From: an uncultured Clostridia bacterium
GTDB lineage: Bacteria > Bacillota > Clostridia > TANB77 > CAG-508
Length of the DNA: 64,000 nt
Direction: 5' to 3'
NCBI GenBank assembly: GCA_944386365.1
Contig: CALXAT010000001.1
Location: 339,028-403,027, forward strand
Position numbers and translations under genes: made by a program. Position 1 is the first letter of the stretch. Each line of letters starts with the position of its first letter. The notes under the pieces are model-generated. The model searched no databases. It had not been told where the DNA came from and saw nothing but the letters and a program-made list of their open reading frames with translations. Shown here piece after piece: positions 3,529-4,786 of this stretch.

Positions 3529-3572
3529 CAAAAAAAGAATCTTTAAAGTTTATTATTTACTTTAAAGATTCT
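3529..3572 (-). terminator. Rho-independent terminator
   Basis: A perfect 13-bp stem (3536-3548 with 3560-3572) is followed on the minus strand by a run of T. It lies just after the stop of the gene at 3599-3985 and separates it from the dockerin gene. Confidence 0.8.
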
Positions 3573-3598
3573 TCTATTTCTTAATTTTTCTCTTGACA

Positions 3599-3985
3599 TT
3601 ATCTATATTGCCCATATCGATTTCCTTGATTATACTTTTTAGCACTTTGCCAATTATTATATGATGATACTACTCTACCTTGTTTTGAACTATTACTTTC
3701 ATGAATATCATGAGATAATTTTCTATATGCTCCATCACCATTCACTTCATTCATAAACCTATTTCTTTTTTGAGTAAATGTAGGTGCTTCTCCTTTCGTT
3801 TTTAAGATAGCATTTGTTACTCCCATTTGTTGTTTAACTGTTTCCTCTTCTTTTATCCAGTATTTCGTATTTGAATCTCCTGGATTAACTGGTACAGGCA
3901 TATAAGATTCATATCCTTCTTTTGCTAAAATCTTCATAGCTTCACTCAATGTATATTGTTTTTCTTTTCTTCTAAATAACCCCAT
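3599..3985 (-). CDS. Unknown 128-residue protein ending in YGQYR
   Basis: I do not recognise this protein. It is hydrophilic and basic, starts MGLFRRKEKQYTLSEAMKIL and has no signal peptide or membrane segment. Its C-terminus, GNRYGQYR, resembles NRKYGQYKKTGEY near the end of the neighbouring gene product at 4099-4428, so the two may be related or bind the same partner. AAGGAG lies upstream of the ATG at 3985. No terminator separates it from the T-box-controlled gene 113 bp upstream, so they may share a transcript, although a TATAAT in the gap could be a separate promoter. Confidence 0.6.
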   Translation of the reverse strand: MGLFRRKEKQYTLSEAMKILAKEGYESYMPVPVNPGDSNTKYWIKEEETVKQQMGVTNAILKTKGEAPTFTQKRNRFMNEVNGDGAYRKLSHDIHESNSSKQGRVVSSYNNWQSAKKYNQGNRYGQYR

Positions 3986-4098
3986 TTTTTCATTTCTCCT
4001 TAATTAATTAAAATTTTAATCAATTTTTATATTTTTATTATATAGTTGTTTATAGAAATATTTCTTCAATTTTTCTATGCTTTCTATTTGTTTTTACT

Positions 4099-4428
4099 TT
4101 ATATCGGTTTATATTCTCCTGTTTTCTTGTATTGTCCATATTTTCTGTTTAATAAAGAAGTTCTTTTTTCACTAGCTTTCCTATTTTTTTCTGTAAGTAG
4201 TAATACTTTTTTATTTTTTCGTTTCTCCTTAAAATCACTTACATATTCTATTTTATCTTTAAAATTGATTTTTAAGATGTAAACTCCCCATTGATTTAAA
4301 AACAAGTTTGGTTCTACTTTTTTATTTGGAAATTCAGTTTTTGCGTCTTCTATACTTTTTACTAATTGGTCTTTTGTAAATGTTTTTGAATCAAAATAAT
4401 ATTCAATACATTTTCCTTCATTATTCAT
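4099..4428 (-). CDS. Unknown lysine-rich small protein under T-box control
   Basis: A 109-residue, lysine- and asparagine-rich protein that I do not recognise. An ATG at 4440 overlaps the AAAGGA ribosome site; the next in-frame ATG at 4428 has correct spacing and is taken as the start. Predicted beta/alpha segments (FDSKTFTKDQLVKSIEDA, WGVYILKINF) are followed by a strongly basic tail (EKRKNKKVLLLTEKNRKASEKR and NRKYGQYKKTGEY). It begins about 50 nt after the terminator of a complete T-box leader, so its expression should depend on uncharged tRNA. It does not resemble an aminoacyl-tRNA synthetase, amino-acid enzyme or transporter. Confidence 0.65.
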   Translation of the reverse strand: MNNEGKCIEYYFDSKTFTKDQLVKSIEDAKTEFPNKKVEPNLFLNQWGVYILKINFKDKIEYVSDFKEKRKNKKVLLLTEKNRKASEKRTSLLNRKYGQYKKTGEYKPI

Positions 4429-4480
4429 ATTTATCAACATCCTTTATTAAATTTTATTTAAAATTTAAAATCATTTCATC

Positions 4481-4750
4481 AAAAAACCACTTCTTCCTAT
4501 TCCATATTTTAGGACGAAATGGTTATTTATCCGTAATACCACCTAAATTTATTAGTATATTTTGTAATAATCTCATTATAGTTTTAACGATTTAACTGCC
4601 TCTTTTTACTATCGTTCAAAAAAAGATTTAAAAAGTGAAATTTCTATATACTATATATTTAATGGTTTCCAGCCAATGCCCATTTTCTCTTGTAAATATC
4701 AAAAAAATATATATACTTTGCTTTTTAATTCGTTTTGTTTTATTTATTAC
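4481..4750 (-). promoter_or_regulatory. T-box riboswitch leader
   Basis: Read on the minus strand, the canonical parts occur in order. A basal stem I helix (4721-4728) pairs with the strand just after the specifier region. The specifier-loop AGTA is at 4714-4717. AGAGA is at 4686-4690. The distal loop GGCTGGAAACC is at 4664-4674. The other side of the specifier loop reads GAAATTTCA (4636-4644). The T-box bulge GGTGGTATTACGG is at 4531-4543. The terminator stem AACCATTTCGTCCT (4511-4524) pairs with 4485-4498 and is followed by six T. The bulge TGGT would pair with a tRNA ending ACCA. The specifier is ambiguous: TTC/TTT (Phe) or ATT (Ile). Confidence 0.9.
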
Positions 4751-4757
4751 CTATAAT

Positions 4758-4786
4758 ATTTTATCACAAAATTGCTTGAAAAACAA
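4758..4786 (-). promoter_or_regulatory. Promoter of the T-box leader
   Basis: On the minus strand TTGTTT (4781-4786), a 17-bp spacer and TAAAAT (4758-4763) place the transcript start near 4750. This gives a leader of about 270 nt to the terminator, a normal T-box length. Confidence 0.6.

Follow-up and report, generated by a model that had tools for sequence, protein, structure and literature searches.

The window analysed here, a stretch of 64,000 nucleotides from an uncultured Clostridia bacterium (genome G000), quite probably carries what is left of a T-box operon for phenylalanine, whose pheS and pheT genes were likely displaced by a divergent (X-type) PheRS pair encoded elsewhere in the genome, leaving behind a leader that is probably losing its function as a switch. 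Downstream of this leader lie two small genes, referred to here as SMALL, which encodes a basic protein of 109 amino acids, and c3. Related loci and genomes are designated by L- and G-numbers, respectively.

The initial annotation described a complete T-box with promoter, stem I landmarks, bulge and competing terminator in order, ending about 50 nt before a 109-residue gene, and this description was confirmed. A covariance search with cmscan, which the annotation had suggested for fixing the specifier, matched the full length of Rfam family RF00230 (model positions 1-219) on the minus strand at 4507-4738, with 54.6 bits and an E-value of 3e-11. This falls under the Rfam gathering score of 93, as do the scores of 5 of the 7 T-boxes found in G000, and a scan of the whole window at the gathering score reported nothing. 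The landmarks all lie on the minus strand in the expected order. A promoter-like element (4753..4786) consists of TTGTTT (-35, 4786-4781) and TAAAAT (-10, 4763-4758) separated by 17 nt; this stretch is largely kept in 12 aligned relatives, with TTG present in all and other -35 bases varying in some. Stem I contains AGTA (4717-4714), AGAGA (4690-4686) and GGCTGGAAACC (4674-4664), has the distal AGAGA/GGCTG motif, and carries the specifier codon within the loop GAAAUUUCAC (4644-4635). Farther along are the F-box of stem IIA/B (4585..4590) and the T-box bulge (4535..4541), both altered as described below, and an intact intrinsic terminator (4481..4524) that has six U and folds with -15.1 kcal/mol, versus -15.3 to -16.4 kcal/mol in four relatives. 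The distance from the end of the terminator to the ATG of SMALL at 4428 is 52 nt.

The specifier had been read as either Phe or Ile, and only the former reading stood. UUC (4637..4639) is invariant in all 31 aligned leaders, the window counted, while the preceding base is A in 14 of them and U in 17. Because UUC is constant and its neighbor varies, the codon is best read as UUC (Phe); AUU (Ile) was rejected, since its A varies to U. In addition, the pattern GAA-N(1-3)-UUC occurs ahead of the lower stem in all 49 loci that were found to have a T-box before SMALL.

Those loci were collected by scanning a collection of species genomes with a single peptide pattern, which yielded 64 loci and would miss members lacking the pattern; all 64 carry titles of uncultured or metagenome-assembled Clostridia, Clostridium or Eubacteriales. 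In 49 loci the T-box core precedes SMALL, in nine it is located between SMALL and pheS, and in six it was found in neither place (L061, truncated at a contig end, L090, L111, L114, L116 and L119). With cmscan, a T-box was found in 11 of the 20 loci of one set, where L010 and L013 are among the nine others and are cut near SMALL, and in all seven loci of a second set; L020, present in both sets, carries its T-box downstream of SMALL. No T-box was found by cmscan in L026, L114, L116, L119, L090 or L111. Among the 49 loci with a T-box before SMALL, the next gene is pheS in 45, and pheT is present in 40 and a c3-type gene in 33, the pheS and pheT counts being limited in part by contig ends; the c3-type gene usually sits between pheS and pheT. 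Of the four loci without pheS, two (L123 and L124) run into the edge of their contig, and in L074 and L075 SMALL is followed by c3 and then by other genes. From these comparisons, the usual gene order is T-box, SMALL, pheS, c3, pheT, and because pheS is the next gene in 45 of 49 loci, the window leader is by origin an ordinary T-box of a pheST operon. The proposal of the initial annotation that the leader would represent a new kind of T-box output was not supported by this comparison. The pairing of leader and small gene is indeed conserved. Of the pattern that the annotation had named as refuting its proposal, one half was observed: the same leader does precede a synthetase gene in relatives, but the small gene is not absent there; it is kept as the first gene of the operon.

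At the corresponding place the window lacks pheS and pheT and retains the T-box, SMALL and c3, a short form held in common with L074 and L075. Alignment with relatives places a deletion scar at the former pheS site (4059..4098, minus strand): in most rows, SMALL of the window matches its counterparts as far as 4094-4099, and at 4058 a match to the pheS-c3 spacer and c3 of L061 sets in, a pattern that supports a deletion in place. The second small gene, c3 (3599..3985, minus strand), encodes 128 amino acids ending in YGQYR. It is no longer followed by pheT; where relatives have that gene, a candidate terminator, recognized from its sequence as a hairpin with a T run, is located (3530..3573, minus strand). 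The alternative offered by the initial annotation, a leader left over after a rearrangement, therefore came nearest to the truth, the event being the loss of the synthetase genes, and its suggestion that the downstream neighbor goes with the first small protein agrees with the position of c3 in relatives. The c3 gene evolves fast (dN/dS 0.33-0.85 in 11 pairs), and the predicted structure of its product is mostly of low confidence (pLDDT 64). Separately, the c3 tails, in the window and in the c3 genes of L061-L118, look as though they had been exchanged between species. Homology between SMALL and c3 was considered and rejected, with a BLASTP E-value of 0.084 and a shared YGQY end that is short. 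The idea of YGQY as a genome-wide tag was likewise rejected: G000 contains three matches to a YGQY[KR]-like DNA pattern, two of these being SMALL and c3, and the backwards control yielded three as well.

The six other T-boxes found in G000 precede valS, ileS, glyS, thrS, pheS-pheT and aspS (names assigned by reading the proteins, except for PheS, which was identified by TIGR00468). The sole PheS found in this genome (C8:26138-27172) is of the X-type, is 41% identical to the operon type, and follows its own T-box (C8:27299-27498; loop GAAUUUCA, specifier UUC). The distribution of X-type PheS is patchy: it occurs in 6 of 35 genomes of the same genus, in G038 and G050 from another family, and in G058 (the genome of L074), G059 (L075, as a fragment) and G061 (L114). 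No PheS was found in two of the 35, G005 and G031. Judged by coordinates, G060, G062 and G063 look identical to assemblies G017, G001 and G008. In a PheS tree the X-type and operon type form separate groups, with support of 100/100 and 100/99, though the tool warned that long branches meet between the groups.

Several observations bear on how the X-type pair arrived. The T-box core lies upstream of X-type pheS in 9 of 11 loci, L130 and L158 being the exceptions. In BLASTN comparisons with the X locus of G000, similarity starts just before the T-box in L127, L128, L129, L155 and L163. It begins inside the leader in L126 and, in four loci at a greater distance, close to where pheS starts; the genes flanking the X loci differ, except for flanks common to L155 and L163. 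X-type PheS is 95% identical between G000 and G011, versus 84% for DnaE, and the nearest relatives of G000 by DnaE (97-98%) carry the operon-type PheS. Taken together, horizontal displacement of the operon PheRS by an X-type pair seems likely, and we infer that the X-type PheRS has spread horizontally, often together with its T-box. Two displacements are likely, because the X-type copies of the window genome and of the L074 and L075 genomes sit in different places.

In G011 (L020:1501-2069 / L126, G011:C25), an X-type pheS stands directly after SMALL and behind a leader that is of the operon type up to the T-box core. There the swap appears to have taken place under the old leader, and since this X-type pheS has an operon-type leader, the X-type pair does not always travel with its own T-box. 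Pyruvate kinase was tried as a host marker and dropped, its identities conflicting with those of DnaE: the enzymes of G027 and G025 are only 56-57% identical to that of G000, though DnaE is 97% identical, and the pyruvate kinase gene seems to have been swapped too. As these identities do not follow DnaE, gene transfer in the genus is broad and host relationships are approximate.

The leader stranded in the window has diverged from those of its relatives. In contrast to its 54.6 bits, seven close-group leaders before pheST score 112.8-120 bits (four at 116.9-120, three at 112.8-119.6), seven more distant ones 86.7-109 bits, and the two other stranded leaders 100 (L074) and 107.2 bits (L075). 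The window leader has 13 changes at columns that are invariant among 20 other leaders; the runner-up, L123, has 9, although this more distant sequence strays further from the consensus overall (51 versus 45). In relative-rate tests against L124, the window leader carried the excess of changes at 22:1 with outgroup L062 (p = 5.7e-6), and likewise 22:1 with L076 and L077, 23:0 with L068 and 21:3 with L069, whereas SMALL third codon positions gave 11:10 (L062), 12:10 (L076 and L077), 13:11 (L068) and 7:14 (L069). With outgroups L074, L075 and L067 the leader gave 19:6, 18:7 and 18:5, which does not differ significantly from SMALL. Over 24 test combinations, the leader excess of the window had p < 0.05 in 22. 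It was smaller where L074, L075 or L067 served as the outgroup (17:7 to 18:3, p 0.0015 to 0.064), and leader and SMALL third positions showed no significant difference in 9 of 9 tests with these three outgroups, versus a significant difference in 14 of 15 tests with the other five. For the stranded leaders of L074 and L075 the corresponding ratios were 6:4 to 9:2 (12 tests), with SMALL third positions at 6:16 to 17:11; these two leaders have changed only mildly.

The changes in the window leader affect particular elements of the RNA. It retains one of three basal stem I pairs, all of which are kept in 30 of 30 relatives, three of four stem IIA pairs (fully paired in 27 of 30), and four of five distal stem pairs (28 of 30). 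Stem III has five of seven pairs, a loss that is not telling because full pairing of this stem is seen in just 15 of 30 relatives; helix A1 has all five (fully paired in 27 of 30). The T-box bulge reads UGGUAUU in place of the UGGUACC found in 30 of 30 aligned relatives, and the F-box reads UCGUUA in place of CCGUUA (29 of 30; ACGUUA in the other). According to a review, the 3' ACC of the bulge stabilizes the discriminator, and a role of the F-box is described there as well (PMC7583486). Given the altered ACC, basal stem I pairs and F-box, the response to tRNA would be weakened or lost. UGGU, the specifier, AGTA, AGAGA, the distal loop, stem II (which retained its six aligned pairs despite sequence change), A1, A2, the terminator, and the lower and middle parts of stem I are intact, so that the leader may still function as a switch. 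On balance, the window leader is probably a switch in decay.

SMALL (4099..4428, minus strand), in contrast, changes at an ordinary rate and is well preserved. Its dN/dS is 0.06-0.09 in five pairs involving the window, 0.04 for L074-L075, where changes are few (1 against 5), and 0.14 for L116-L119; some of the branch leading to the window may predate the swap. The gene starts with ATG at 4428, though the open frame could begin at 4440, and its product has a pI of 9.7 and 22 lysines among 109 residues. A single predicted structure shows a beta-alpha-beta-beta head, a long lysine-rich helix (59-93) and a YGQYK tail (pLDDT 80, pTM 0.47), and profile and fold searches found no Pfam, NCBIfam, PDB or convincing fold relative. 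The tail YG[QKEV]Y is present in 50 of 61 SMALL open reading frames. Using both a single-sequence search and a 62-row profile, SMALL was detected in 22 of 35 genomes of the same genus and in 0 of 20 others of the order, and was thus found in this genus alone among the 55 genomes searched.

The fate of SMALL after the synthetase swap could be followed in X-type genomes. In the sample of 35 genomes, which was not chosen by SMALL, the gene is kept in 5 of 6 X-type genomes (not in G014) versus 17 of 29 others; G058, G059 and G061 carry it as well but were reached through SMALL loci. Among the eight X-type genomes with SMALL, the upstream T-box remains in G000, G058 and G059, none was found by cmscan in G001 (L116), G008 (L119), G021 or G061, and in G011 SMALL sits before the T-box. 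Reading of the surrounding proteins gave the order c6, SMALL, YlxM-like, Ffh for L119, with L116 alike except for other genes in between, and c6, T-box, SMALL, pheS, c3, pheT, YlxM-like, Ffh for L089. Because relatives such as L089 hold both in that place, leader and pheST alike seem to be gone from L116 and L119. In these two loci, with neither T-box nor pheST at that place, SMALL was also seen to end in a c3-type tail, YGDWQQAKKY. The motif occurs in 24 of 696 open reading frames, namely the SMALL genes of L116 and L119, 21 c3-type genes, and one frame between pheS and pheT in L108; it was absent from 13,920 shuffles and from 127 database proteins, the pattern having been written after the sequences were seen, and a c3-tail profile failed to pick up the ends of SMALL in L116 and L119. 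We read this tail as a putative fusion with that of c3, which would link the two small genes.

These observations can be accommodated by the following history. In the ancestor, following the established T-box mechanism, which we assume to apply here, uncharged tRNA-Phe would have paired with the specifier UUC and with UGGU of the bulge, the antiterminator would have formed, and SMALL-pheS-c3-pheT would have been transcribed; charged tRNA would have left the terminator in place. An incoming, T-box-headed X-type pheS-pheT would then have taken over, and the operon copies of both genes would have been lost from the window, so that the stranded leader would now precede only SMALL and c3, with expression that is presumably low or unregulated.

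Three rival explanations were weighed. As the initial annotation proposed, the T-box might still work, with SMALL and c3 as its true remaining output, a module for Phe starvation that has become independent of the synthetase. We regard this as unlikely. The specifier, UGGU, A1, A2, terminator, promoter and stem II pairs all speak in its favor, as do the survival of the high-scoring leaders of L074 and L075 without pheST and the low dN/dS of SMALL, but the window leader changes fast, including at positions constant in relatives, and its basal stem I pairs are broken. Moreover, X-type genomes keep SMALL without an upstream T-box (no match in L116, L119, L026 or L114, and a T-box after SMALL in L020), and in nine loci with operon-type pheS, SMALL is upstream of the T-box; SMALL therefore does not need the switch. 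An extended version, in which SMALL and c3 form a module that answers a shortage of charged tRNA-Phe, born in the pheST operon and turned into a stand-alone T-box regulon after the pheST takeover, with pheST loss elsewhere appending the c3 tail to SMALL, is a still less probable conjecture.

Somewhat better placed, though doubtful, is the possibility that SMALL acts together with c3 as an accessory factor for PheRS or tRNA-Phe, such as a helper that binds tRNA, and was retained because it serves the imported PheRS as well. In most loci SMALL is found close to pheS, either within the T-box unit or immediately beyond it, and c3 tends to sit between pheS and pheT. SMALL is also basic and rich in lysine, and in the sample of 35 genomes it is retained more often in X-type genomes than in others. 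However, SMALL is undetectable in 13 of the 35 genomes of the genus, of which 12 gave a PheS match (interrupted or fragmented in G002 and G010) and G005 is the exception; in G017 it lies on a different contig from pheS and has an internal stop; and it outlasts the change to a PheRS of 41% identity and is without a fold or family match. Finally, the leader could have been brought to SMALL by rearrangement or copied from one of the six other T-boxes of G000, one of which is itself specific for Phe, but 49 of the 64 related loci show the same pairing of leader and gene and the promoter is largely kept, and this conserved order refutes the idea, leaving it next to no probability. We therefore return to the displaced operon as the preferred explanation, under which SMALL most likely serves an independent function that is not tied to one PheRS. 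From its charge and neighborhood, one might guess that it binds RNA or a component of translation together with c3.

The valS and thrS T-box operons of G000 also open with an unassigned protein, of 98 amino acids (L001:1145-1438, minus strand) and 257 amino acids (L004:703-1473, minus strand), respectively, neither with a Pfam match up to an E-value of 1. Uncharacterized first genes between T-box and synthetase may be a habit of the genus. Judged by eye, the T-box before aspS (L006:1501-1698, plus strand) seems to have AAC (Asn) as its specifier, consistent with an AspRS that would charge tRNA-Asn as well.

The pheST operon is a usual T-box target in Firmicutes. The window leader resembles the pheST T-boxes of that phylum in RNA family (RF00230), in its UUC specifier, in its antiterminator/terminator pair, apart from the altered bulge, and in heading pheS and pheT in relatives. 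It differs in that an uncharacterized gene lies between leader and pheS in those relatives, and in that the window lacks the synthetase genes and its RNA is eroding. Wels et al. (2008) reported that 8% of T-boxes precede genes of unknown function or without an apparent link to amino acid metabolism, and distinguished four modes of T-box evolution, namely co-evolution, co-evolution with new specificity, duplication with insertion, and duplication with divergence; in the parts of that study consulted, loss of the target with stranding of the leader, as in the window, is not among the four (PMC2494555). A literature search, with most subscription papers outside its scope, returned nothing direct on the SMALL family, on pheST T-boxes associated with hypothetical genes, on small proteins in pheST T-box operons, or on stranded T-boxes. 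The loci described here form a natural riboswitch series, from leaders with their target (45 loci) through stranded but little changed (L074, L075) and stranded and eroding (the window) to absent beside a retained first gene (L116, L119), which lets one ask how fast a riboswitch decays after target loss and which parts of the RNA fail first. They also point to a conserved, uncharacterized protein family that opens a pheST operon in one group of uncultured Clostridia and persists through a swap of the synthetase. Displacement of aminoacyl-tRNA synthetases by divergent, xenologous ones is known in kind, and the probable replacement of PheRS by a divergent PheRS conforms to it. The present case differs in that a separate T-box heads the incoming pair, and in that a leader and two small genes stayed behind from the outgoing operon; what is new here is a conserved first gene of the pheST operon that survives the PheRS swap.
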